The notes under the pieces: generated by a model
Seen by the model: the letters and a program-made list of their open reading frames with translations, nothing else
The model's database searches: none
Told to the model about the DNA's origin: nothing
Position numbers and translations under genes: made by a program
Part shown: positions 132-23,940 of the stretch, piece after piece
How the letters are laid out: the number at the start of each line of letters is the position of its first letter
How positions within the stretch are numbered: position 1 is the first letter of the stretch
From: a virus
Length of the DNA stretch: 25,496 nucleotides
Virus record (IMG/VR): IMGVR_UViG_3300021233_000150
Location: 1 to 25,496 of that record
Reading direction: 5' to 3' (one strand)

Positions 132-3005
132 ATGACAAGTCCTGGAAAAGTTATCCGCTCATTTGCTCGTATTACAAATGACACCAAGGTAGCAATGGGT
201 CAAATGGTTCTTGATGGATTTGGACCAATGATTCTTGCTGCTTATGATGCGTATAAAGCATTCAGTAAATTAATTGTTCCTGGTGGAGCGTTATATCCAA
301 TTATTGAAGCATTAACTGCTGTATTTACTAATCTTACACAGCCACTTACAGATGCAATTACTAAGTTTACAGATTTTGCTTCGAAAATGACTCCCGTGAA
401 AACATCTATCTCTGACATGGGTTCAGAAATTTCTAAGTATCTTCCAGTAATTGCATCTCTTGGAACTGCTTTTGCAACTATGGCAGGACAGAACTTATTA
501 AGACAAGTGCCAATTTTTGGTCAACTTTTGGGAGCAATTAATCCAGTTGCTGCTGCAATAGTTGTATTAATAGCAACTGCTCCAGCAATGCGTGATGCTT
601 TTATGAACCTTCTAGGTGCATTAAAACCTTTATTGCCAGTACTTGCAGAAGTTGGAAGAATTGCTGGAACGGTTGTTAACAATGCAATTTATCTGCTATC
701 AGGTGCAATTAATGCTTTGGCTGGTTTTATTACAAACTCAATTAAATTTGTAAAAGAAAATTCAACTGCATTTAAGATTATGGCTGGAATTGCTGGAATG
801 CTTGCTGCTGCAATTTTTACAGTAGTCGCAGCAATTAAAGTTCATGCAGCAGTTCTTGCGGTTAGCAAGGGAGTCATGACTGCTTTTGCAGTTGCTCAAG
901 TATTAATGAGTGGTGGACAACTTGCTTCGATTGCTTCAACTAATGCACTTGCTGCATCAATGCTTAAACTGAATGCAACTATGGCTGCAAATCCTATTGG
1001 ACTTATTGTTGCTGCTATTGCTGCACTTGTTGCTGGGTTTGTGATTGCTTGGAATCATTCAGAAACCTTTAGAAAGATTATGATTGCTATTGGTAAGGCT
1101 GGAATTATTGCCGTTGGATATGTGATTGAATGGATTGGAAAATTAGCAAAGGCTATATTGACAGTCAATTCAGGTCCTCTTCGACTTCTCTTAAAGGGTC
1201 TTGCTCTGCTTAAAGTTCCTGGGGCGCAAACTGCTCTTGATGGGATAACTGGAGCGATTGATAATGTTGGCAAATTTTTTGACAGCACTTCTGAAAAGAT
1301 TAAAAGTTATGCTGATAATTTAGATGCACTAGAAAATAAAAGATTCAAACTTCCTGACCTTCTTGGCAGTTCATTCAAGATGCCTAAAACAAAAGAAACT
1401 ACACCAAAGAATCCAGCAACTGGTCTTAATGGTGGCGGTGAGGATGGTGGCACTGACGGTGCTGGTGCAGCAGCAATTTCTGCATTGCGTGAGACTCTTC
1501 AAAAGTACAACGACTTTATCAATAATGAGTTCGTTAAGGGATTCCAAAAGGATTCATCAACTGCACGAGAGACTGTTACAAAGTCTCTTGATTTACTTAA
1601 GAATATATTTGATGAAAAGGCTAAGGGTCTAAAGGGAACTGCTCTCAAGAATCTTCAAGATTCTTATTGGAAGATTAATGACACTATTCGTCAATTCATC
1701 CCACAGGCTGAGGAAATTGGTAAGGCATTTGAGGAATTAAATCTTGCAATTGAAGACGCAACCAAGCGCTTAGAAGAGGCAACTAAGAATCGCGCAGATG
1801 CAGCAGAAAAATTTGGCGAATTGCTAAGAAAGCCATTTGGGGAGCCAAGTGCAATCACAAAGGCTATGGGTTCAGCCGAGGCTACTGTTGATTCGATTAT
1901 CAGTATGTACGACAATCTTGTTGAACAAATTAACAAGCGTTATGATGGAATTGACCCAACTGGACGAGATAATTTAGTTAATTTCCTTACTAATCAAACT
2001 CAACGACTTGTTGATTTAGCGCGTCGTCGAGTTGAAGTTGCTAGAAAACTTACAGATGCTCAGACTGCTTTAGACAAGATTACTCAGGAACAGAGTTCGT
2101 TTGTCAGTTCTACAAGGTCTTCTATGAAGTCATTTGCTACTGCTCTAGTCGACCTTTCAAAATCTGATGCTCAGGCAACTATTCAGGTTGTCAAAACAGC
2201 AAGCGGTCTTGTCATAACTCAAATTCAGAGTTCATCTAGCGGAATTGATGCTATTACAAAGCAACTTCGTGAACGATTCCAGTCAATTAAAGATTTTGCA
2301 GCAAATATTAAGTCTTTAATGGAGCGAGGAGTCAATAAAGATTATATTCGTCAATTAATTGAAGCAGGTCCTGAAGCAGCAGGTGCAGCAGCAAGTTTGA
2401 TGGCTGGAGCAACTGATTCCCAGTTGGCTGAAATTAACACTCTTTATTCAGGAATTGCAGATTTATCAAATTCCTTTGGCGATGAAATGGGAATGAATTT
2501 CTATGGCGCTGCTGTCAAGTCTGCTCAAGCATTAAGAGATGGATATCAGTCAGAGATGGATTCCATCAATGCTGAGATGGCAGCAATTGTTGCTGCTATA
2601 ACAGATGCCCTATCGCCATTATCTGACCTTGGAACTAATCTTGGTGAAGACATCGCTCAAGGATTCCTTGATACCTTAAACAAGCGAAAGACAGAATTAG
2701 TGACGCTTGCTGAAAGCATTGCAACTGCAATCGCTGAGGCGATGAAGAATGCACTTGATGGAATCGGTGTTGCAGGTGCAGTAGTTCCAACTACAAACAC
2801 TCCAGTTTCTCAACCTACTCTTGCTGATGGAGAAGCAGCAAGAAGGGCTTTGATGAAATTAACAGGCAATCAAACATTGACTGATGAAGAAAAGAAATTA
2901 CTAAATATTGGAACAGTGAATGTCAATGTAACAACTCCTGATGCTCAAACATTTGCAGATGATTTGCCTGGAATCATGTCTAAAGCACTACTCGGTAGGA
3001 GATAA
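132..3005 (+). CDS. Tape measure protein (C-terminal major part)
   Basis: This 957-residue frame is the bulk of the phage tail tape measure protein, which sets tail length and is thought to be released when the genome is ejected. It is long, rich in Ala, Ile and Gly, and has hydrophobic stretches near residues 130-165 and 215-310 typical of tape measures. A Gly-rich linker near 430-450 is followed by long charged helical and coiled-coil segments (about 450-700) and a low-complexity C-terminus. It precedes three tail-tip genes, as in siphoviruses. The true protein almost certainly starts upstream of the window; the start at 132 is simply the first ATG after the TGA at 66-68 and has no ribosome-binding site. 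Confidence 0.85.
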   Translation: MTSPGKVIRSFARITNDTKVAMGQMVLDGFGPMILAAYDAYKAFSKLIVPGGALYPIIEALTAVFTNLTQPLTDAITKFTDFASKMTPVKTSISDMGSEISKYLPVIASLGTAFATMAGQNLLRQVPIFGQLLGAINPVAAAIVVLIATAPAMRDAFMNLLGALKPLLPVLAEVGRIAGTVVNNAIYLLSGAINALAGFITNSIKFVKENSTAFKIMAGIAGMLAAAIFTVVAAIKVHAAVLAVSKGVMTAFAVAQVLMSGGQLASIASTNALAASMLKLNATMAANPIGLIVAAIAALVAGFVIAWNHSETFRKIMIAIGKAGIIAVGYVIEWIGKLAKAILTVNSGPLRLLLKGLALLKVPGAQTALDGITGAIDNVGKFFDSTSEKIKSYADNLDALENKRFKLPDLLGSSFKMPKTKETTPKNPATGLNGGGEDGGTDGAGAAAISALRETLQKYNDFINNEFVKGFQKDSSTARETVTKSLDLLKNIFDEKAKGLKGTALKNLQDSYWKINDTIRQFIPQAEEIGKAFEELNLAIEDATKRLEEATKNRADAAEKFGELLRKPFGEPSAITKAMGSAEATVDSIISMYDNLVEQINKRYDGIDPTGRDNLVNFLTNQTQRLVDLARRRVEVARKLTDAQTALDKITQEQSSFVSSTRSSMKSFATALVDLSKSDAQATIQVVKTASGLVITQIQSSSSGIDAITKQLRERFQSIKDFAANIKSLMERGVNKDYIRQLIEAGPEAAGAAASLMAGATDSQLAEINTLYSGIADLSNSFGDEMGMNFYGAAVKSAQALRDGYQSEMDSINAEMAAIVAAITDALSPLSDLGTNLGEDIAQGFLDTLNKRKTELVTLAESIATAIAEAMKNALDGIGVAGAVVPTTNTPVSQPTLADGEAARRALMKLTGNQTLTDEEKKLLNIGTVNVNVTTPDAQTFADDLPGIMSKALLGRR

Positions 3006-3007
3006 TC

Positions 3008-4525
3008 GTGGCAGTTACAACAGTTATTCCTGATGCAACCGCAACTGGTGCAGCAAACTTTACTTTAACTGGTGCTCCATCACTTAATGCTGCCCTTGCA
3101 GACGGCTCAGATGCTACTTATGCACAAAAACTCAATACAATCACTGGAAGCGCATCAGCCCTTTTAGATTTTGGAACTTTAACTGTTCTTGCAACACAGC
3201 AGATTAAGCGAGTTCGAATTCGTGCTCGTGTCTCTACTCCAACGACTAGTGGTAAGGTAAATATCTATCTTGGTGCTCGCGTAAGCAATGTTAATTATTT
3301 CCATTCAGCCTTAGCCATTCGTGGTCAATATACGAGCGCTACAACTTTCACTGGACCTTGGCAGACATCATCTCCTGATGGAACAAGTTGGAGTCAAGCC
3401 GATATCAATGGTCTTCGTGCGAAGATTACTGAATATTCCGATACAACTGACCGTGCAACTTTTTATGAACTTTATATTGATGTTGATTTAGTAACTCAAC
3501 CAACAGTTACAACAGTTACAGCACCTTCAGGAACTATTACAACAACCGCTTCTCCTGATATTACTTGGACTTATAGTGATACAGATAATGAGACGCAAAG
3601 TTATTATCAGATTAAAGTCTTCTCTGCTGCCCAATATGGTGCAGGTGGTTTTAGCCCAGCAACATCTACGGCAACATGGAACTCAGGTGAAATTGCTTCA
3701 TCCGATAACGCATCAATTGTTGGTTACTTATTGCCTAACGCCACATATCGTTGTTATATTCGTGCTGCTAAAACAGTTAACAATGCTCCATTTTGGAGTG
3801 ATTACACATACTCAAGTTTTGTTATTAACTGCACATCACCAACAACTCCAACTCTTGTAGCCTCGTGGAACTCTAGCCTTGGCTATGCAAGTTTTACAAT
3901 CACTGGAGCAGCGCTTCCTAGTGGTTACTCATCTCAATATTATGTAGTTGAACGAAGCGATGACGCTGGAATTACATATTCAACCATTCGAAATGGTTCA
4001 AATATCACGCCTGTTTCATATGTCGGAACTGCTACAGACTACGAGGCGCCTAGAACTTATACGGTTTACTATCGCGCTCGCGCTATTGGTATTACAACGG
4101 GCTCAGTTGAAATTCCATCAACCTATTCAACAGTTCAACAGGTATTAATTACTAATGACTCAACATGGTGGTTTAAGGTTCCAGCAAGTCCAACGCTCAA
4201 TGTTGGTTCTGTAAATGTATTGAATGGACTCAACATTACAGTTGAAGAGCCTAATACAATTTTTCGCCCGCTCGGAGATGATAGACCAATCGTTGTTGCT
4301 GGTACCTTACAAGGTAAAGATGGTCGTTACACAATTACGACTACAAATAACACACAGTTTAATTTGCTACTGCCTGTTATTAATTACCAAGGGACTTTAT
4401 TGGTTCAAGACCCTCTTGGAAATCAAAAATACATTCGCATTACTAAGCGTTCATGGACTGAATCAACTGTTGGAACTATCGTTCGACGTCTTATAGATAT
4501 TGATTATGTTGAGGTTAGTTCGTAA
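3008..4525 (+). CDS. Minor tail protein with fibronectin type III-like domains
   Basis: This 505-residue structural protein starts with GTG two bases after the tape measure stop. The N-terminal third is a beta-rich Ser/Thr/Ala region. From about residue 165 there are repeated FN3-like segments, with a PTVTTVTAPSG-type entry and Tyr/Trp-spaced strands such as TYTVYYRARAIG near 345-360. The last 120 residues are another beta domain (SWTESTVGTIVRRLIDIDY). Its position directly after the tape measure, and its TAATG overlap with the next tail gene, indicate a distal tail or tail-tip protein; FN3 domains in such proteins commonly contact cell-surface carbohydrate. The exact role (distal tail or hub-associated) is inferred from order. 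Confidence 0.75.
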   Translation: MAVTTVIPDATATGAANFTLTGAPSLNAALADGSDATYAQKLNTITGSASALLDFGTLTVLATQQIKRVRIRARVSTPTTSGKVNIYLGARVSNVNYFHSALAIRGQYTSATTFTGPWQTSSPDGTSWSQADINGLRAKITEYSDTTDRATFYELYIDVDLVTQPTVTTVTAPSGTITTTASPDITWTYSDTDNETQSYYQIKVFSAAQYGAGGFSPATSTATWNSGEIASSDNASIVGYLLPNATYRCYIRAAKTVNNAPFWSDYTYSSFVINCTSPTTPTLVASWNSSLGYASFTITGAALPSGYSSQYYVVERSDDAGITYSTIRNGSNITPVSYVGTATDYEAPRTYTVYYRARAIGITTGSVEIPSTYSTVQQVLITNDSTWWFKVPASPTLNVGSVNVLNGLNITVEEPNTIFRPLGDDRPIVVAGTLQGKDGRYTITTTNNTQFNLLLPVINYQGTLLVQDPLGNQKYIRITKRSWTESTVGTIVRRLIDIDYVEVSS

Positions 4526-5670
4526 TGTATTCAGCAACCGCAGCATTTAGAGCAGCAATTAATGATAGTCACACTGTTGTTGCTAAGGCTGAAATTTGGT
4601 CAAGTGACCAAAAATTAGCGACATTAAAAATTGCAGGTGGCTCAGTCAGCGCAAGCGCTAAAAATGCAACTCGTCGTACCTGTGAAGTAACTTTATCAAC
4701 TGACAGAACTACAGACAATATGGTTCCCGATAATGATTATGACCTATTGACGCCTTTTGGTAATGAACTTCGTCTTTATAGAGGCATTGAATATACGGAC
4801 GGAACTCAAGAATATATACCTCTTGGAGTTTTTGTCATTACTGATGTTTCTATCGCAGACAGAGCCGATGGGGTTGCTATCCGAGTCAGTGGAGAAGACC
4901 GCTCACTTATAGTTTCTCGTTCTAAGTGGTTGCAGCCATATCAAATGGTTGCTGGAACTCTCGAAGCAAGTATCACTGCATTGCTTCAAAGTCGTTACAG
5001 CGATGTACAAGTTTCTTTTCCTACGACTGGAGTTTCAATTGGTCAGGTTATTTTGGGTGTGGATAAAGCAAATGACCCATGGAAAGATGCTGTGCAGATT
5101 TGTGAACTCGTTGGATATGACCTTTACTTTGATGTAACTGGTGTTGCAACAATGAAGCAATTCCCAACACTTGATGGAGCGGTTGTTGTGGCTACATATG
5201 AAGAGGGCAACGGAACAACAATTACTGAGTTAGATAGAACTATCTCCACAAAAGAAACATATAACGGAGTTATCTATACAGTAACTGGAAGCCAAGTAAC
5301 TACTCCAATCAAAGTAACCGTATGGGATGAAGATTCAACTAGCCCAACATATCGTTATGGAAAATTTGGTCAGGTTCCAATTTTCATCACTTCGGGCTTA
5401 GCAACTTCAACAGATGCAGCAACCACTGCTGCAACAAACCTTCTATACACATTTATCGGTTCACAGGAAACAATTAACTGGAGTTCTCTAGTTGACCCAA
5501 CTTTAGATGTTCAAGATGTTGTCTATGTTAAATCAGTTGGAGCAAAAGTGAATCGATTGGTAATTATCGACGCTTTATCAATTCCACTCAGCCCTGACTC
5601 ACAAATGAAGGCAGATGCGCGTATTGTTCGTGTAGTTGCAACAGGCGAAACTATTCAGGTAGGTAAATAA
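4525..5670 (+). CDS. Tail-tip or baseplate hub-like protein (DUF5047-like)
   Basis: This 381-residue protein overlaps the preceding stop by one base (TAATG). It opens with a beta domain describing a frame-like segment (RRTCEVTLSTDR, LLTPFGNELRLYRGIEY, PLGVFVITDVSI), then a helical and beta core (GYDLYFDVTGVATMKQFP). This pattern is typical of siphophage tail-associated hub proteins annotated as DUF5047 or minor tail proteins. In the established tail module order, tape measure, distal tail and hub protein follow one another, which fits here. No peptidase motif is evident. The hub assignment rests on order plus remembered family pattern, not on an alignment. Confidence 0.7.
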   Translation: MYSATAAFRAAINDSHTVVAKAEIWSSDQKLATLKIAGGSVSASAKNATRRTCEVTLSTDRTTDNMVPDNDYDLLTPFGNELRLYRGIEYTDGTQEYIPLGVFVITDVSIADRADGVAIRVSGEDRSLIVSRSKWLQPYQMVAGTLEASITALLQSRYSDVQVSFPTTGVSIGQVILGVDKANDPWKDAVQICELVGYDLYFDVTGVATMKQFPTLDGAVVVATYEEGNGTTITELDRTISTKETYNGVIYTVTGSQVTTPIKVTVWDEDSTSPTYRYGKFGQVPIFITSGLATSTDAATTAATNLLYTFIGSQETINWSSLVDPTLDVQDVVYVKSVGAKVNRLVIIDALSIPLSPDSQMKADARIVRVVATGETIQVGK

Positions 5671-5900
5671 TGGATTTACATGAAGTCTTTAAGCAGATAG
5701 GTGCTCAACAGCAACCTATGCAGTTGACTCAAGGAGTCGTAAGTGCAACAGCAGCGGGAAGTGTTTCAGTAAAAATTGCTGGGGCGACAGATGCTGTTAC
5801 GGGAATTAAATACTTGAGTAGTTATTCTCCAGCAACTAATGATGTAGTTTTTATGCTCATAAATGGAAACGATGTACTTATCCTCGGTAAACGGGCTTAA
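5670..5900 (+). CDS. Small tail-tip protein, possible OB-fold spike-like
   Basis: This 76-residue protein has its start overlapping the upstream stop by one base (TAATG), so it is translationally coupled to the hub-like gene. After a short helix (residues 1-17) the sequence is almost all beta strand with evenly spaced Val and Gly, ending VVFMLINGNDVLILGKRA. This resembles the OB-fold domains of phage baseplate spike proteins. It closes the tail module; the next gene begins the lysis genes after a 34-base gap. The OB-fold suggestion is an inference from strand pattern and location. Confidence 0.65.
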   Translation: MDLHEVFKQIGAQQQPMQLTQGVVSATAAGSVSVKIAGATDAVTGIKYLSSYSPATNDVVFMLINGNDVLILGKRA

Positions 5901-5934
5901 GGTATTATTAACCTATAGACACTTAGGAGTCACT

Positions 5935-6219
5935 ATGAATAAGAAGCAAAAGGCGATGCTCGCCTCATACGGTCGTTCACTACTTGCTGCAATGACCACA
6001 GCATTCATGCTTACAGGTGGAGATATCTTTGCGCTCGATGCAACTTCAATGAAGCAAATTTTGGCTGCGGGAATCGCTGCTGTTTTGCCAGTTGCTCTAC
6101 GCGCTGCTAATCCAAAGGACCCAGCATTCGGCAAGATTGCAGATGTAATTACTGATTCAGTCGTGAAGAAAGTAACTGCTCCAGCAAAGAAAAAGGCTGT
6201 GAAAAAGGCTGCGAAGTAA
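5935..6219 (+). CDS. Holin-like small membrane protein
   Basis: This 94-residue protein has a basic N-terminus, two hydrophobic segments (about 11-27 and 41-57), the motif VALRAANPKDPAFG (53-66), and a very basic Ala/Lys tail (79-94). The segment after the second helix is typical of actinophage r1t-type holins, which permeabilise the inner membrane to release or activate the endolysin. The start at 5935 was chosen over an in-frame upstream ATG at 5863 because it follows a good ribosome-binding site (TTAGGAG) and does not overlap the tail gene. The stop overlaps the endolysin start (TAATG), giving a holin-endolysin pair. Confidence 0.75.
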   Translation: MNKKQKAMLASYGRSLLAAMTTAFMLTGGDIFALDATSMKQILAAGIAAVLPVALRAANPKDPAFGKIADVITDSVVKKVTAPAKKKAVKKAAK

Positions 6220-6725
6220 TGGCTGAAAAAGGAACAGTAGATTTATTTTTGCAAGTTGCTTTCAAGGAAATCGGAACTATCGAGGGTCCTAAAGACAACG
6301 AAACAAAATACGGTGCTTACACAAAGGCTAATTTTCTGCCATGGTGTGGCTCATTCGTCATGTGGTGCGGTAACGAAGCAGGGGTAAAGATTGTAAATAC
6401 AGTCTCAACTCTTGCTGGAGCACAGGCATATCAAAAGGCTAAGGCTTGGCAAGATGCTGAGACAGCAACTCCAATGCCTGGAGATATTGTTTATTTTGAC
6501 TTCCCAGGAGATGGCGTAGACAGAATCTCCCACGTCGGAATTGTTTTGAAGGATAACGGTGACGGAACAGTTACCTGTATCGAAGGAAATACATCTCCTG
6601 ATAAGAAAGGTGACCAGCGAAACGGTGGACAAGTTGCAAAGAAAGTCCGCGCTTACAAAAAAGGCGCTACTAAAGGATTACCTCTTGCAGTTGTCGGTTT
6701 CGGTCGCCCAAAGTTTAAGGCATAA
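6219..6725 (+). CDS. Endolysin, CHAP-domain peptidoglycan hydrolase
   Basis: This 168-residue enzyme consists of essentially one CHAP (NlpC/P60-like) domain, which cleaves peptidoglycan peptide or amide bonds at lysis. The catalytic cysteine is C43 in PWCGSFVMW, the histidine is H105 in ISHVGIV, and the polar partner is in the IEGNTS motif (E122, N124). The MPGDIVYFDF segment (86-95) is the usual Pro-Gly-Asp strand of the fold. There is no separate cell-wall-binding domain and no signal peptide, so export depends on a holin. It is coupled to the holin-like gene upstream and followed two bases later by an XhlA-like membrane protein. Confidence 0.9.
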   Translation: MAEKGTVDLFLQVAFKEIGTIEGPKDNETKYGAYTKANFLPWCGSFVMWCGNEAGVKIVNTVSTLAGAQAYQKAKAWQDAETATPMPGDIVYFDFPGDGVDRISHVGIVLKDNGDGTVTCIEGNTSPDKKGDQRNGGQVAKKVRAYKKGATKGLPLAVVGFGRPKFKA

Positions 6726-7006: not shown

Positions 7007-7030
7007 CATAACCAACTAGGGTGGTATATC
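7003..7030 (+). promoter_or_regulatory. Promoter for the recombination/replication block
   Basis: TTGACA at 7003-7008 matches the -35 consensus perfectly. TATATC at 7025-7030 is a fair -10, with a 16-base spacer. A 6-bp dyad (CCTCTC caac GAGAGG, 7030-7045) straddles the expected transcription start and precedes the AGGAG ribosome-binding site before the ATG at 7054. The site marks the switch from lysis genes to recombination genes within an otherwise continuous rightward block. Confidence 0.65.
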
Positions 7031-7053
7031 CTCTCCAACGAGAGGAGATATAC

Positions 7054-7587
7054 ATGACAAACCTAGTACCACTAGACGAATTTGAAGTCGTCGAAGCATC
7101 ACCAATTGCAGAAGCCTTTACCGTCGATGACGATTCAAAGGCTGATTGGGCTATGCGAAAACTCGCGAGTCTGCGACGTAAGCAAGCCGAGAATAAAGCC
7201 ATTGCAGAGGCTGAGATTCAAAGGGTCACAAAATGGCTGGAAACGGTCAATACAAGCCTTGAGAATGACGCTTCATACTTTGAGGCAGTCCTAACCCCAT
7301 ACGCGCTCCTACAGCGCTCTGAGGGGCGTAAATCGGTACTCCTACCTCATGGCACCATCAAGACAACTGCTGGACGTCCAAAGATTGAAATCGAGGACGA
7401 AGAGGCATTCCTTGCATGGGCTAAAGAATCGGAGAACTCAGTTATCAGAATCAAAACTGAAATCGACAAGAAGGCACTCAATGCTTTGATTCGCGATGAT
7501 AATCAGGTAATATCAACCCAAGGTGAAATTGTTCCAGCAGTTCGAGTTATACCTGCTGAAACTTCAGTTTCATTTGTAACCGAGTAG
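7054..7587 (+). CDS. Gam-like host-nuclease inhibitor
   Basis: This 177-residue protein resembles the Mu Gam family, which binds DNA ends and shields them from host exonucleases. After a short acidic N-terminus, a long helix carries the pattern WAMRKLASLRRKQAENKAI and continues through KWLETVNTSLENDASYFE. The signature KSVLLPHGTIKTTAGRPKIEIEDEE follows, split here across the turn characteristic of Gam proteins, and then AFLAWAKES. The start at 7054 is preceded by GAGAGGAG. It is paired with an ERF annealing protein immediately downstream, the usual partnership in phage recombination modules. Confidence 0.85.
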   Translation: MTNLVPLDEFEVVEASPIAEAFTVDDDSKADWAMRKLASLRRKQAENKAIAEAEIQRVTKWLETVNTSLENDASYFEAVLTPYALLQRSEGRKSVLLPHGTIKTTAGRPKIEIEDEEAFLAWAKESENSVIRIKTEIDKKALNALIRDDNQVISTQGEIVPAVRVIPAETSVSFVTE

Positions 7588-7598
7588 AGAGAGAAAAC

Positions 7599-8291
7599 AT
7601 GGATACGGAAACAACAGTAGTAACACCAGCGTTACCGACAATTTCACAATCACTGAGTGAAATCATGAAGGCAGTTGGAGCAATCGCAAAGAAAGACAAG
7701 AATACTTCGCAAGGTTTTAACTTTCGCGGAATTGATTCAGTCGTCAATGCGGTATCTCCAGCGCTACAAAAGCACGGCGTAATTGTTGTGCCACGAGTTG
7801 ATGATTACTCATATGAGACAGTTGAAATCGGTCGTAACCGAACAGCGATGGGTCATGTGAAGGTAAAAGTTACCTACGCATTCATCGGTCAAGCAGGGGA
7901 TGCAATTAGCGCCACGGTTGTAGGTGAGGCAATGGACTCAGGAGACAAGGCAACCGCTAAGGCGATGTCTGTAGCCTTTCGAACTGCACTCCTACAGGCA
8001 CTCTGCCTACCAACAGATGAACCCGACCCTGACGCAACTTCATACGAGCGTTCAAGTGCAACTGACGTACTCGCTCCAAGTGCAGTACTTATCAAACTCG
8101 CAGGAGCCACAGATAATGCTGCGCTCGCTGAAGTTAGTAACTACATCACGGCAAACAAGCACGGTTATTCATCCGAGCAACTAGAAGCATTTCGCGCAAA
8201 GTTTGTTGAAGCGCAAACAAAATTAAATCCACCAGCGTTGGGAGAGGAAACCAATGACACAGAATCCACAGGAGAACCCGTCGGAGTTTGA
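7599..8291 (+). CDS. erf: ERF-family single-strand annealing recombinase
   Basis: This 230-residue protein belongs to the essential recombination function family, which anneals single-stranded DNA for phage recombination and genome circularisation. Diagnostic stretches are SQGFNFRGIDSVVNAVSP (37-54), the beta hairpin FIGQAGDAISATVVGEAMD (95-113), and the core SGDKATAKAMSVAFRTALLQ (114-133) followed by LCLPTDEPDPD. The C-terminal third is a variable helical tail. The ribosome-binding site is GAGAGAGAAAAC before the ATG. The last 38 bases overlap the next gene in another frame. The Gam-like gene upstream supports the assignment. Confidence 0.92.
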   Translation: MDTETTVVTPALPTISQSLSEIMKAVGAIAKKDKNTSQGFNFRGIDSVVNAVSPALQKHGVIVVPRVDDYSYETVEIGRNRTAMGHVKVKVTYAFIGQAGDAISATVVGEAMDSGDKATAKAMSVAFRTALLQALCLPTDEPDPDATSYERSSATDVLAPSAVLIKLAGATDNAALAEVSNYITANKHGYSSEQLEAFRAKFVEAQTKLNPPALGEETNDTESTGEPVGV

Positions 8292-14803: not shown

Positions 14804-15187
14804 CTAGAGATTTTCAGCCTGATACTTATATTCAGGACATAGATAGATTACTGATGCAGCGATGATAATTGCTACAGCGCGTTCACCTTCGCTAGTTGTC
14901 TGTGTTTGAACAAGTTTAATTGCCAGTGACCCAACACTCTCGCCATTGTCTAGGGCGTTGCAAGCGTTGTAACCCATCTCGAGCAATTGAGCCTGTGACC
15001 CTAGATTCAGTACTGTGTTGCCAGTTCGACGAATCTCAGAGACAAAGCCGTCTTCATCCGATGGATTCACGTCGGCATCTTGAGGAGCAACATATGGCTC
15101 ACTTGATGTTGAGTTGTCGCTGCCACATGCTGATAAACCAAATGCCAGTGGAATAACCAATAGCCCTGCTAGTAACTTTTTCTTCAT
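14804..15187 (-). CDS. DUF732-like secreted lipoprotein
   Basis: This 127-residue protein has a lipoprotein signal peptide: KKK start, hydrophobic core LLAGLLVIPLAFG, and lipobox LSAC with C21 as the lipidated residue. A Ser/Asp/Pro linker is followed by a DUF732-type helical domain (about 48-127) with paired cysteines (C74 and C119, in YNACNAL and YLCPEY). DUF732 is a domain known mainly from actinobacterial secreted proteins. I chose ATG 15187, with AGAGAGG upstream, over a longer in-frame start at 15373 that overlaps the preceding gene. Phage lipoproteins often block superinfection, so that is a reasonable but unproven role. Confidence 0.75.
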   Translation of the reverse strand: MKKKLLAGLLVIPLAFGLSACGSDNSTSSEPYVAPQDADVNPSDEDGFVSEIRRTGNTVLNLGSQAQLLEMGYNACNALDNGESVGSLAIKLVQTQTTSEGERAVAIIIAASVIYLCPEYKYQAENL

Positions 15188-15270
15188 GTCGTGCCTCTCT
15201 CTAGTTTTTCGATTCTCACTCTTGAGACTCGAATCTTGCCACGCTTTGGATAAATAAACCAGTGTTTCAT
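15184..15270 (-). CDS. 28-residue coupled basic peptide
   Basis: A short leftward frame begins at ATG 15270, overlapping the upstream stop (TAATG), and ends in a TGA that overlaps the lipoprotein start (ATGA). The peptide is strongly basic (KHWFIYPKRGKIRVSRVRIE). It fills the whole gap between two genes with overlaps at both ends, so it may be a real micro-gene or only a coupling device that carries ribosomes to the lipoprotein start. It also contains the lipoprotein ribosome-binding site. Confidence 0.45.
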   Translation of the reverse strand: MKHWFIYPKRGKIRVSRVRIEKLERGTT

Positions 15271-18104: not shown

Positions 18105-18296
18105 ATGGTTGAAGCAGGAGTTCGAGCACCGTCTTTAGTTAATGCTTTATGCGATAGATGCAGCGCTCAAGCCTATGTAATCGGTGCTTTCGTTAGTGGA
18201 GATTTATATTTCTGCGGTCATCATGCAAGAGAAGCCAAGATGCAGATAGCCATGCAAGCGCTGAAGATTTATGACCCTGAAGGCGTCCTTCGTTAA
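18105..18296 (+). CDS. DUF7455-like zinc-binding protein
   Basis: This 63-residue protein has CDRCSAQAYV (C16, C19) and LYFCGHHAREA (C37, H39, H40), a compact zinc site typical of the DUF7455 family common in actinobacteria and their phages. Its function is unknown. It ends the rightward operon and overlaps the convergent protease gene by four bases. TACGGT followed by six bases and the ATG could be a third leaderless promoter, but GGTAAAG may equally serve as a weak ribosome-binding site. Confidence 0.75.
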   Translation: MVEAGVRAPSLVNALCDRCSAQAYVIGAFVSGDLYFCGHHAREAKMQIAMQALKIYDPEGVLR

Positions 18297-18853
18297 TCCT
18301 TAATAACGATATGAAACGGTGGAGCCGTATCTGAGTTGTAAGCGCTCGCAATTTCAAGAGCCTTGTTAGCAATCTTTCGTGCTTCGCTTCGAGTTGTCGT
18401 ATCGCCTTGCATAGAGGCTAAGGCTCCAAGGGCTATCGCTCCACCTGAGCCAAGAGCATAGACGCCACGAGAATCCTGTACCCATGAGTAGTCAGAGCCA
18501 ACTTCGTAAATCTTTCCTTTGTAAGCGATAAGAAATTCTGATTCATGGGATGACTGACCTTCAGTTGTCTTCTCGTATCCAGCATCGGAAAATGCCTTAC
18601 GCATTGCAGGGATTAAAAACGAAGTAATGAAATGTGCATCATTGTGTGCCACATAAGTCTTAGGCAATTTCAAACCCGCTTGCAAGATATTGATGGCTCG
18701 TAAATCTCCAGCACATGCAATTGTGAATTCTTCATGCTCGATAATCTTTGAGTGACCCTTAGCCAATTTATAGATTGTTGAGTCATCTGCAATACGAGTA
18801 TCTGCACCCAAGAGCGCCCAGTTGCGTCCTTGAATGCCGACCAGTGTTGTCAT
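18293..18853 (-). CDS. Proteasome beta/HslV-like Ntn hydrolase
   Basis: This 186-residue protein has a proteasome-type N-terminal nucleophile. After Met removal the chain begins TTLVGI, so Thr1 is free. D17 (GADTRI) falls at exactly the proteasome/HslV position, and the general-base lysine is near position 33-35 (KGHSKII). The C-terminal half has YALGSGGAIALGALAS and ARKIANKALEIASAY, matching the GSGG helix and IA--AL-IA segment of the family. It has no propeptide. The start ATG-ACA-ACA is fixed by the chemistry although there is no clear ribosome-binding site; it lies nine bases after the deacetylase-like gene. A role in modifying host or phage protein turnover is an inference. Confidence 0.85.
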   Translation of the reverse strand: MTTLVGIQGRNWALLGADTRIADDSTIYKLAKGHSKIIEHEEFTIACAGDLRAINILQAGLKLPKTYVAHNDAHFITSFLIPAMRKAFSDAGYEKTTEGQSSHESEFLIAYKGKIYEVGSDYSWVQDSRGVYALGSGGAIALGALASMQGDTTTRSEARKIANKALEIASAYNSDTAPPFHIVIKD

Positions 18854-18862
18854 GAGCCAAGG

Positions 18863-19786
18863 CTACATGAGTGCCACCTTTGAAGTTGGTAGCGCCATGA
18901 GACCGAGCGCAGATGCCACCCAAGCGTCAGGAGTTCCCGTATCAGGCTGATATCCACCCGCACCGCCTAAGAGGATTGGCGTATCAGGATAAGCCTCACG
19001 GACCATTCGCATCGCCTCGAAATATCCTTTAGTTGTATATTCGAGATTCGATAGCGGGTCATCCTTGAGACCATCGGCTCCAGCAGCAACGAAGATAATC
19101 GTTGGCTGAAATCCTCGGACTTCATCAAGGAAATTAATTGTTGCAACCTTGAGCGCTGCATCGCCACTTTTAGCAGCAAGCGGATAGTTGAATGCTTTGT
19201 TAAGCCAGTCGCTAGTTAATCCAGTCCCTGGAAAGAGTCCCCACTCATGAACAGAGTAGGTCAAAACATTCTTATCTTTGCGTAATAGTTCTTCAGTACC
19301 GTCGCCATGATGTGCATCGATATCAAAGATTGCTACGCGATATCCCCACTCGACCGCTCGCTTAGCAGCGATAGCAAAATCTGCAAATACACAGAATCCG
19401 CTGGCATAGTTACGCATTGCGTGATGCTTGGCTCCAGCAAAGTTAATCGCTAACTTTGTCTTTCCATCTACCAAGTAATCAAGGGCTGTCATAGTTCCGC
19501 CAACAAATAGTTTTGCTAGGTCGCCTAGGTCATGGCGCTGCCCGACCCATTCTCCTGACTCACCGCGAATCGTCACGTCAAAGACATATTCTTCATCGTG
19601 AACAAGATGCAAGTCATCAGTTGATGGATACTCAGGCGGAAGTTCCCAAAGATTAATCCCGCGCTTTTGTGATTCCAGTACTAAACGATTGCGAGCATGA
19701 AGGAAACGTCGCCCTTGCGTTGGATGTGTCTTATCGAAAATCCAGTTCGCATATTCAGGCGAATGAATCAAAATTGCGTCTTCCAT
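18863..19786 (-). CDS. Histone deacetylase-fold amidohydrolase (AcuC/acetylpolyamine-type)
   Basis: This 307-residue enzyme has the arginase/deacetylase fold with every key residue visible: the HH pair in FAGAKHHAM (H121, H122); zinc ligands in IFDIDAHHGDG (D157, H159) and AAGADGL (D238); and the transition-state tyrosine in GGAGGY (Y279). These enzymes remove acyl groups from lysine side chains, polyamines or acetoin-pathway substrates using zinc. The ribosome-binding site is AGAGAGGTATGAA. It is the first gene behind a palindrome-bearing promoter and is followed nine bases later by the proteasome-like gene. The substrate cannot be deduced. Confidence 0.9.
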   Translation of the reverse strand: MEDAILIHSPEYANWIFDKTHPTQGRRFLHARNRLVLESQKRGINLWELPPEYPSTDDLHLVHDEEYVFDVTIRGESGEWVGQRHDLGDLAKLFVGGTMTALDYLVDGKTKLAINFAGAKHHAMRNYASGFCVFADFAIAAKRAVEWGYRVAIFDIDAHHGDGTEELLRKDKNVLTYSVHEWGLFPGTGLTSDWLNKAFNYPLAAKSGDAALKVATINFLDEVRGFQPTIIFVAAGADGLKDDPLSNLEYTTKGYFEAMRMVREAYPDTPILLGGAGGYQPDTGTPDAWVASALGLMALPTSKVALM

Positions 19787-21672: not shown

Positions 21673-21981
21673 ATGAAGAAAATTCAAGACATTATTTCCC
21701 GCATGGTGGCTGTCTTTATTGTGGGCGCACTAGGCACCTTGGGCGCAGCAGCCGTTGTAGGAGTTGATACGGCTGTGGCTTTGACTATGGCTGGACTTTT
21801 GGCTGTGGCTTCAGTTGCTGAGCGCTTAGCCCGTGAATATCTTGATGACGGCAAACTCACCCTTGACGAAATTAACGGAGCATTTAGCCCATTCGCCAAG
21901 AGTGAGGAGCACGAGGTTTCGGGTGAATCTATTCTTTCGAGCGACGAAGAGGGTAAGTCAAAATCCAAACGCCGAGGCTAA
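21673..21981 (+). CDS. Holin-like membrane protein with EF-hand-like loop
   Basis: This 102-residue protein has one or two hydrophobic segments (about 10-48: VAVFIVGALGTLGAAAVVG and ALTMAGLLAVASVA). An acidic loop DDGKLTLDEIN (58-68) follows and resembles a calcium-binding EF-hand, with the FSPF segment just after it. The C-terminal tail is charged. Small phage proteins with membrane helices followed by D-GKLT-DEIN are often annotated as holins. It has no ribosome-binding site, so translation probably begins at the 5' end of the message. It stands alone on this strand and its 3' end overlaps a leftward gene by 53 bases. Confidence 0.65.
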   Translation: MKKIQDIISRMVAVFIVGALGTLGAAAVVGVDTAVALTMAGLLAVASVAERLAREYLDDGKLTLDEINGAFSPFAKSEEHEVSGESILSSDEEGKSKSKRRG

Positions 21982-22096
21982 CTAAAATCGCATAGCCGAC
22001 GATTCCCTTTGCAGTACCATCTAAAACAATCCAAGCAACGAACATGCCTAGCAATGTCCATAGTTGCCCAATGACGTCGTTAAAGAAGTCTTTCAT
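21929..22096 (-). CDS. 55-residue membrane protein coupled to the lectin gene
   Basis: Reading leftward from ATG 22096, which overlaps the lectin gene's TGA (ATGA), with ATAGGAG upstream; the stop is TAG at 21929-21931. The protein has two hydrophobic helices (about 11-25 and 32-48: LWTLLGMFVAWIVL and IVGYAILVSLGVWILTY) and a basic end (PLRRSKE). It could be a small holin or a partner of the surface protein. The last 53 bases run antisense to the holin-like gene. Confidence 0.7.
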   Translation of the reverse strand: MKDFFNDVIGQLWTLLGMFVAWIVLDGTAKGIVGYAILVSLGVWILTYPLRRSKE

Positions 22097-23895
22097 GGTT
22101 TTCTCCTATATCCGACGCTACCGACGGTAGCCATCGCTGTTGTAGTTGCAATGTTGCCAACGATTGTCGCAGCAACAATAGTTTTTGTGGCTTCTTCGCG
22201 TTCGGCTGGAGACATATCGGCTCCAAGGTTGCCAATCGCAAAAATAAGTTGAGCAGGGCTTTCAAATATTGCTGAAAGAATTTCTCCAGGGGATTCGAGA
22301 AGTTCTAAAGCATCAGCAACTTGAGCAGAAATAATTACTGCATTTCCATTTTCATCTGTTCGAACATCAACAGGTGTTGCAGGTGGAAGGTCAGAGTAAT
22401 CAAGACCCGCCTCTTTTAATGCAGATGCAGGGACCGCTGGAGCATCAACGAATTGAGCAACGATTGCAGTTGCAACAATTTCTTTTTCCTTTTCAGTTAA
22501 TTTTCCATCGGCTGTTAAATCTTTAATTAGATTATCAACCTCCGTAGCAGTAACCTTTCCATCTTGTAGAATATCTACTACAGGTTCAGGGGACGGGGCA
22601 GGAGGCTCAGATGGTTGTGGTTCAGGTATGGGACTTGGCGGGACAATTTCCGCTGGGGGTTCAGAAGGTATCGGTTGAGGTTCTTCAACGGGCGGAGGAG
22701 TTGGCTCGGGAACGGGGAGCGGTTCAGGTTCAGGAGCAGGTGCGGGTGGCTCTTCGGGACTTGGACTTGGCTCAGGTTGAGGAGTCGGACTTGGTGTGGG
22801 TTCAGGAGCAGGAGCGGGAGTCGGCTCTACCGCAGGGGTATCGACTGGATTCGGAAGGGGGACTGGTACGGGATTTGGTTCAGGTATCGGAATTGGAATT
22901 GGGGTAGGAGATGGAAGTGGGATTGGCTGTGGCGTTGGCTGTACTGATACTGATGTATTGGCATCAACGACAGGACTCGGAGTAGGCGATGGTTGTGGAG
23001 TTGTTTGTACTGGGGATGGGCTTAGCGCTGGGCTTTCTAGTGGCTTCGGAGTTGGCGAAGGACTGGTACTTGGCTCAGGTGAAGGAGTTGGAGATGGAGT
23101 TGGAGAAGGCGCAGCAGTCACTGAAGGAACAGGGTCAGGCGTTGCCACAGGTGAGGGTTGAGATGACGGCTGAACAGTTGGAGAAGGCTCGACAACTGGG
23201 GTGGGGCTGGGTGTTGGGACTGGAGCCAAAGCAGGAATAAAGACGGTTGCTACATTCGACCAGTCTGAATAAAGCATTAATGAATCATTATCAGAACGAA
23301 TCTTGAAACTAAAATCTTTGTCGCGTCCAGCATAATCAACGACCTCTAAAGGCAAAGTAATTGTGTTTGACATAGATGCAACGGCTCGACCAGTTGCCCA
23401 ATTATCTGAAGACCAAAAAACAGCGTAGCGCTCAATTGCTGTTCCCGCTGTTGGTGTATCCCATGTCAAAGTGATATCAGTTGCAGTCAATGATGCAACA
23501 AGATTTGATGGAGCCAATGGTGCAACTGGAGCAGGTGGCGCAATTTCTTGATATGAGATTGAAACGGTCAAGCGCTTGTAAGTTCCACCGCATGGGTCAC
23601 CGAAAACGCTATTGGTCGCAGGGATGGAAAGATTCTCATTCTTGATTGCAGCGCTAACAATGCTCATAGAGTCGACGGCATGGCATGAGCCGAGGTTTGT
23701 GCCGTCAGGAGTGCCGTAAGAGGCAAAGAGCACTTGGTCGACCTTGTAGCCCGCTGGAGCGTCCATGGTTAGGACATAGCCTTCATTGACCGTTGCTGTA
23801 GCCACGATTGGGGCAGCCGAGGCTGAGTCAGGCAGTGGAATGAGAGTCCACATAAATGCAAGGCAGAAAACTGAGAGAATTCTTAGAAAGCGCAC
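22093..23895 (-). CDS. Secreted lectin/FN3/proline-rich surface protein
   Basis: This 600-residue protein starts at GTG 23895 behind GAGGAG. Domains in order: a signal peptide (1-27, RFLRILSVFCLAFMWTLIP then SASA); a SUEL-type (rhamnose/galactose-binding) lectin domain (about 37-116) with VLFASYGTPDGTNLGSCHA and SVFGDPCGGTYKRL; an FN3 domain (about 128-220); a stalk of about 220 residues rich in Pro with PTPSP and PEP repeats (221-440); an EF-hand/dockerin-like pair DGKVTATEVDN and DGKLTEKEKE (445-472); a helical region; and a hydrophobic C-terminus ending YRRKP, like a membrane anchor. It is probably displayed on the host surface. A longer frame reaching 24039 overlaps the divergent promoter and is rejected. 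Confidence 0.85.
   Translation of the reverse strand: MRFLRILSVFCLAFMWTLIPLPDSASAAPIVATATVNEGYVLTMDAPAGYKVDQVLFASYGTPDGTNLGSCHAVDSMSIVSAAIKNENLSIPATNSVFGDPCGGTYKRLTVSISYQEIAPPAPVAPLAPSNLVASLTATDITLTWDTPTAGTAIERYAVFWSSDNWATGRAVASMSNTITLPLEVVDYAGRDKDFSFKIRSDNDSLMLYSDWSNVATVFIPALAPVPTPSPTPVVEPSPTVQPSSQPSPVATPDPVPSVTAAPSPTPSPTPSPEPSTSPSPTPKPLESPALSPSPVQTTPQPSPTPSPVVDANTSVSVQPTPQPIPLPSPTPIPIPIPEPNPVPVPLPNPVDTPAVEPTPAPAPEPTPSPTPQPEPSPSPEEPPAPAPEPEPLPVPEPTPPPVEEPQPIPSEPPAEIVPPSPIPEPQPSEPPAPSPEPVVDILQDGKVTATEVDNLIKDLTADGKLTEKEKEIVATAIVAQFVDAPAVPASALKEAGLDYSDLPPATPVDVRTDENGNAVIISAQVADALELLESPGEILSAIFESPAQLIFAIGNLGADMSPAEREEATKTIVAATIVGNIATTTAMATVGSVGYRRKP
22576..23235 (-). repeat. Proline-rich low-complexity stalk repeats
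   Basis: The codons for residues 221-440 of the surface protein form an imperfect short-period repeat (Pro alternating with Ser, Thr, Glu, Val). Such stretches change length easily by slippage or recombination. The opposite strand reads as long Gly/Val-rich open frames, which are artefacts of this composition. Confidence 0.85.
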
Positions 23896-23940
23896 AACAG
23901 GCTCCTCGAACGGGGTCACCGAGGACACGATTGAAATAAA

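Follow-up and report, generated by a model that had tools for sequence, protein, structure and literature searches.

A signal peptide-bearing lectin stalk protein and its 55-residue partner form a two-gene module usually linked to the lysis cassette of predicted environmental actinophages

The stalk gene and its neighbours in the window

The window analysed here, the 25,496-nucleotide stretch of IMG/VR record IMGVR_UViG_3300021233_000150, carries a gene for a proline-rich stalk protein followed on the same strand by a gene for a 55-residue partner, with a holin-like gene abutting the pair (Table 1). The stalk gene is a real gene, with a Shine-Dalgarno sequence located 6 nucleotides ahead of its GTG start; a promoter scan gave a result no better than chance. 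The predicted protein opens with the signal peptide MRFLRILSVFCLAFMWTLIPLPDSASA^AP, and a basic n-region, a hydrophobic core and an A-x-A site were found in all 66 distinct complete relatives, in agreement with the cleavable signal that a sequence-only reading of this DNA had proposed. The SUEL lectin assigned to the tip in that reading is borne out. Its Pfam match (2.8e-7, 31.2 bits) falls 0.2 bit short of the curated cut-off of 31.4 and lies above the cut-off in the genome-wide search, and comparison with solved structures gave 5.2e-21 for the L-rhamnose-binding lectin 5h4s, 4.7e-10 for CSL3 and 6e-12 for the SUEL part of RemA (8gl6). The FGDPC-GTYK-L motif is intact, vfgdpcggtykrltv aligning with vfgdpcrgvykylev. 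We regard the assignment to SUEL lectins as firm, and binding of rhamnose or galactose is predicted from it. The FN3 domain suggested next to the lectin does have a match, which is nevertheless weak (Pfam E=0.0019) and, among 62 relatives, was seen in the window protein alone. The stalk, put at some 220 residues in the sequence-only reading, proved to have 219, with 88 prolines and a net charge of -23. Between the window protein and its L002 homologue (88% identical), dN/dS was 0.13 for the signal peptide, 0.17 for SUEL, 0.41 for FN3 and 1.0 for the stalk, and the difference between SUEL and stalk indicates a binding domain under constraint on a neutral spacer.

Table 1. Features of the window and, in the last three rows, of related loci
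Feature	Position	Strand	Remarks
Tail genes	132-5670		
Small membrane protein directly 5' of the endolysin	5863-6219	+	
CHAP-type endolysin of the window phage	6219-6725	+	15 kb from stalk gene; family adjoins stalk gene in many relatives
Putative lipoprotein with DUF732	14804-15190	-	Pfam 2.5e-9
Proteasome-subunit-like protein	18293-18853	-	Pfam 1.3e-5
Histone-deacetylase-fold protein	18863-19786	-	Pfam Hist_deacetyl 6.6e-55
Holin-like protein	21673-21981	+	PHROG 443; convergent with partner gene, abuts module
DGKLT..E motif, tail of holin-like protein	21840-21900		
Partner gene	21929-22096	-	55 aa, two hydrophobic segments; ATGA overlap with stalk stop codon
Stalk protein gene	22093-23895	-	600 aa, GTG start; 86-88% identical full-length homologues L002-L004
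GADMS motif (558-562), anchor helix (about 571-592), RRKP tail	22096-22224	-	Kept in all relatives
Conserved membrane-proximal C-terminal domain, residues 452-560	22216-22542	-	Without Pfam, PHROG or PDB match
DGKLT..E motif, stalk pre-anchor region	22460-22520		
Pro-rich stalk, residues 227-445	22561-23217	-	40% Pro; dN/dS about 1
FN3-like domain, residues 128-226	23218-23514	-	Weak Pfam match covers 128-171 alone
SUEL / L-rhamnose-binding lectin domain, residues 46-113	23557-23760	-	FGDPCGGTYKRL motif; Pfam and solved-structure matches
Sec signal peptide, residues 1-27 (DSASA^AP)	23815-23895	-	Sequence, relatives' layout, dN/dS 0.13
Shine-Dalgarno GAGGAG	23902-23907		
Second signal-peptide protein, L025	5182-6204		
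Second signal-peptide protein, L214	4347-5519		
Second signal-peptide protein, L262	4211-5380		

At the other end of the protein, the C-terminal domain was modelled with a pLDDT of 61 at first and 74 with a deeper alignment, and neither model found a fold match in the PDB. In 86 diverse relatives, conservation throughout is limited to the GADM segment, the anchor helix and the basic tail; in the alignment of the segment, G, D and M are invariant and R is nearly so. The C-terminal hydrophobic stretch is present in all 66 distinct complete members and the basic tail in nearly all of them. Alignments A1 and A4 held no LPXTG-type motif before the helix, the position being occupied by GADM(S/T)xxxR. 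The hydrophobic anchor expected from the letters alone is thus there, with its RRKP tail, but its hydrophobicity is weak (best 19-residue Kyte-Doolittle mean 1.56), and because the helix is so marginal the stalk protein may also be released. The EF-hand pair described in the same reading had to be given up: the loops DILQDGKVTATE and DLTADGKLTEKE carry L or T instead of an acidic residue at position 3, no EF-hand Pfam family matched the stalk protein, and the loop motif DGKxT..E (DGKLT type) is absent in divergent relatives. What looked like an EF-hand pair is just a degenerate DGKLT motif. A DGKLT..E motif is common to the pre-anchor region of the stalk protein and the tail of the holin-like protein.

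The partner gene had been missed in the sequence-only reading, as had the association with lysis genes. Searches of Pfam and PHROG with the 55-residue protein gave no significant match; 23 positions are invariant among 13 aligned members. Of 103 loci selected on the stalk, 102 have it next to the stalk gene, and the remaining one terminates within the stalk gene. In the converse scan, where loci were selected on the 55-residue protein alone, the stalk gene lay alongside in every one of the 77 newly fetched loci. Taken together, 179 of 180 loci have the two genes side by side, in most cases with an overlap of a few bases; since many of the contigs overlap or are near-duplicates, the loci counted do not represent independent events (146 distinct stalk C-termini). 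The more divergent pair of L214 has a stalk ending in GKDMTDDQREKVQ-helix-RRK, followed by a 64-residue partner-like protein. The stalk gene and the 55-residue gene are an obligate two-gene module. Some phages encode a second signal-peptide protein of 340-390 residues, with a MNSFKKIA-like start, directly 5' of the stalk gene.

Distribution of the module and variation of its tips

Pattern-seeded scans of IMG/VR recovered 24 loci with the whole stalk protein and at least 355 confirmed stretches, among 599 examined, with the alignment of the stalk C-terminus, and the 55-residue protein is encoded in at least 598 IMG/VR stretches. No match to the stalk family was found in 50,697 named phages or in plasmids; a distant holin-like gene is present in the named phage DSL-LC01, where the pair was not found. 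When 84,980 GTDB genomes were scanned with the C-terminal alignment, no copy turned up, a weak negative because this pattern-seeded scan requires exact peptide patterns. Within that pattern limit, homologues were seen among phages but in none of the host genomes, the comparison that the sequence-only reading had put forward. A literature search found no earlier description of the module, and lectins and adhesins go unmentioned in the main text of Kavagutti 2019. The unit seems to be widespread in environmental viruses and undescribed so far.

The tips vary on a conserved base. Among 62 members, 13 carry SUEL, 11 carry PA14 and the remainder gave a weak match or none. Tip exchange was scored by pairwise discordance (single-linkage clustering merged nearly all tips and was set aside). 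Unrelated tips on C-termini at least 75% identical made up 106 pairs (L009 and L010, for example, at 91.5%), and the reverse, similar tips on divergent bases, made up 29 pairs (L027 and L083, with 88% identity in the tip and 55% in the C-terminus). The tips, as compared in these pairs, are evidently interchangeable. Most members have Pro-rich stalks; those of L024 and L025 are Ala/Glu-rich. The possibility that a phage copies the tip from its own tail-fibre tip was rejected, since SUEL or PA14 occurred in 22 of 43 large records and was confined each time to the stalk gene.

Virus type and association with lysis genes

WhiB was found in 34 of 43 records, from which we judge the hosts to be actinobacterial and the records to be probable actinophages. 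The window terminase shares 51-55% identity with those of Arthrobacter phages. Judging by context, the viruses presumably come from fresh water. No capsid gene was recognised in the examined parts of the window, which begins just before the tape measure gene. A tyrosine integrase, the one integrase type covered by the search, occurred in four of the 43 records, a count that may be incomplete; the role during lysogeny that had been suggested as one option finds no support in it. Other genes of the window include a putative lipoprotein with DUF732, a mainly actinobacterial family, and a histone-deacetylase-fold protein, an odd cargo for a phage, which is kept at 52-98% in 28 viral loci and of which a pattern scan of GTDB genomes found no copy. 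Both phage groups encode relatives of the proteasome-subunit-like protein in most of their loci, in many cases a few kb away from lysis genes (L012, L014, L021, L024).

The small membrane protein encoded next to the module in the window has phrog_26427, 'nuclease', as its best PHROG match (1.9e-35) and also matches phrog_443; the 'nuclease' label looks wrong. Among 124 unique loci, the family of this holin-like protein lay within 600 nucleotides downstream of the stalk gene in 63 and a holin family within 2.5 kb of it in 75, the holin labels on these flanking small membrane proteins being PHROG library matches. In the cleanest of the tests, with loci selected on the endolysin alone, the module was present in 34 of the 36 with at least 4.5 kb on both sides, and in 33 of the 36 it was on the same strand and no more than 1.5 kb away; in the two that lack it (L239 and L255), no long stalk-like gene rich in Pro lies close to the endolysin. 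Among stalk-selected records holding both genes, a same-strand endolysin lay within 2 kb in 16 of 33, against 3.0 expected for either strand, and none of 200,000 simulations reached 16 such neighbours, a figure to be taken as indicative because the records are related. The order stalk, 55-residue protein, holin, endolysin, with genes overlapping or abutting, was found in L064, L176, L036, L069 and L093, and homologues of the small membrane protein preceding the window endolysin lie just 3' of the pair in L012-L018 and L023. From these neighbourhoods, the pair is assigned to the lysis cassette in most relatives.

The window and its near relatives (G001, G003-G006 and G008) are arranged differently, with the module at least 15 kb from the endolysin and on the other strand; the holin-like gene still lies beside the module, on the opposite strand. 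Among 14 loci of this group selected on the deacetylase-like gene, a neighbour unrelated to the module, 13 retain the pair, which makes it a core and not an optional component. The exception, L185, whose deacetylase is 90% identical to that of the window, shows an antisense Pro-rich trace of the pair at 7024-7865, which we take as a deletion or a collapsed assembly.

Possible roles and comparison with known systems

We propose, with a probability of roughly 0.45, that the module is an egress-phase, membrane-anchored glycan-binding stalk that acts on the envelope of the infected cell and aids lysis. The proposal builds on the export signal, the lectin family, the stalk, the anchor layout, the obligate pairing, the swapping of tips and the lysis linkage, all of them read from sequence comparison. 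The stalk protein would be exported via Sec, losing its signal peptide, and its weak C-terminal helix would hold it in the cytoplasmic membrane, where the two-helix partner probably stabilises the anchoring. The long unstructured stalk would cross the cell wall and present the swappable tip, here of the L-rhamnose/galactose type, to what are presumably its targets, the glycans of the outer envelope. Together with holin and endolysin, the stalk protein would tie the membrane to the outer glycan layer, and this layer may be disrupted or opened while the wall is digested. Such a task would resemble that of spanins or LysZ, carried out by a differently built protein. Several points weigh against this egress reading: gene neighbourhood does not prove function, exchangeable sugar-binding tips are no less typical of adhesins, the known spanins belong to Gram-negative hosts, LysZ has another size and the opposite topology, the anchor helix is marginal, the holin labels come from a library, and in the window group the module is distant from the endolysin, although a holin-like gene adjoins it.

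The lectin might instead glue the dying cell or membrane debris to neighbouring hosts or particles before lysis, so that progeny are set free beside new hosts in dilute water. The adhesin layout and the similarity of SUEL to RemA, a bacterial surface adhesin, suit such a late adhesin, tip exchange resembles that of receptor-binding domains, the lysis-cassette linkage implies late expression, and the lack of any match in the named phages is what one might see if the gene were of little use in laboratory culture. We consider it unlikely, as it gives no special reason for an obligate membrane partner or for a place so nearly fixed beside the endolysin. Protection of the infected cell, in which the lectin coats the cell's own sugars and blocks further phage adsorption, was the main idea of the sequence-only reading and appears quite unlikely. 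A phage gene displaying a sugar-binding domain at the surface, a tip diversity in keeping with varied receptors, and the place of the window-group gene at the head of a separate leftward cluster outside the late region would all accord with such receptor masking and superinfection exclusion. Yet the gene is locked to lysis genes in most relatives, tyrosine integrases are rare, and the tip domains SUEL and PA14 are not common to the phage's tail fibres; the strongest new evidence, the near-constant place in the relatives' endolysin cassette, suggests an action as infection ends and not the shielding of a host that is still alive.

Another idea is that the tip senses sugars outside the cell, neighbouring cells or incoming phages and that this state is relayed through stalk, anchor and partner to the holin, which would make the module an RI-like switch for lysis inhibition, fitted with an external antenna. 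The module does abut a holin-like gene in many loci, conservation is highest not in the tip but in the membrane-proximal GADM segment with its anchor helix and in the membrane partner, and the DGKLT-type motif recurs in the stalk pre-anchor region and the holin-like tail; a neutral, flexible stalk (dN/dS 1.0) would nonetheless be a poor transmitter of signals, and we hold such an outside-in timing sensor to be very unlikely. That the protein belongs to the particle, as an accessory fibre or a receptor-binding protein, is highly improbable. Variable tips recall those of tail fibres and there are weak FN3 and tail-fibre library matches, against which stand the universal signal peptide (66 of 66), the C-terminal anchor, the obligate membrane partner and a gene position in the lysis cassette, outside the tail module. 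The earlier view of a surface layout as opposed to a virion protein therefore holds, SUEL and PA14 never being found in tail fibres. It is rather doubtful, though conceivable, that the pair represents a new type of module, a lysis-cassette antenna with exchangeable glycan-binding tips and an obligate 55-residue membrane adaptor that couples the cell exterior to lysis, either setting holin timing by sensing or gripping the cell's neighbours or its outer glycan coat as it bursts. Gram-positive lysis is usually pictured as the work of holin and endolysin. Here a two-gene unit occurs at several hundred places in IMG/VR and is near-fixed beside the endolysin of a common actinophage group, and the pair supplies concrete genes with which a step still missing from the picture of phage egress, or of infected-cell behaviour, could be tested in environmental actinobacteria.

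Among known systems, LysZ of Corynebacterium phages CL31 and Cog is a membrane protein of 177 residues with one transmembrane domain (N-in, C-out), for which an action on envelope lipoglycans during lysis has been proposed (PMC13056207). The stalk protein shares with LysZ a predicted membrane anchor, a proposed action on the glycans of the envelope that is exerted outside the membrane, and a place in the lysis cassette of actinobacterial phages, which applies to the relatives, the window copy having a holin-like neighbour only. It differs in its 600 residues, signal peptide, C-terminal anchor, long stalk, lectin tip, obligate 55-residue partner and opposite topology; compared by description, it would work like LysZ without being LysZ itself, because size and topology differ. 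Spanins (Rz/Rz1 and unimolecular), known for Gram-negative hosts, are likewise lysis-cassette proteins that join the inner membrane to an outer layer; unlike the stalk protein, they involve the Gram-negative outer membrane and coiled coils or a lipoprotein, and have no lectin tip. SasX is a prophage-encoded surface adhesin of Staphylococcus aureus, and Gram-positive adhesins of its type also combine a signal peptide, a binding domain, a long stalk, a C-terminal hydrophobic stretch and a basic tail. In contrast to them, the stalk protein has GADM(S/T)xxxR before the helix instead of LPXTG, the 55-residue partner, linkage to the lysis cassette and only rarely an integrase in the same record. Its lectin domain has the FGDPC.GTYK.L motif of 5h4s, CSL3 and RemA (8gl6), whereas here SUEL is one of a set of exchangeable tips, borne on a stalk and anchor that are specific to phages. 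Unlike a tail fibre or receptor-binding protein, finally, the stalk protein carries an export signal and is encoded outside the tail module.
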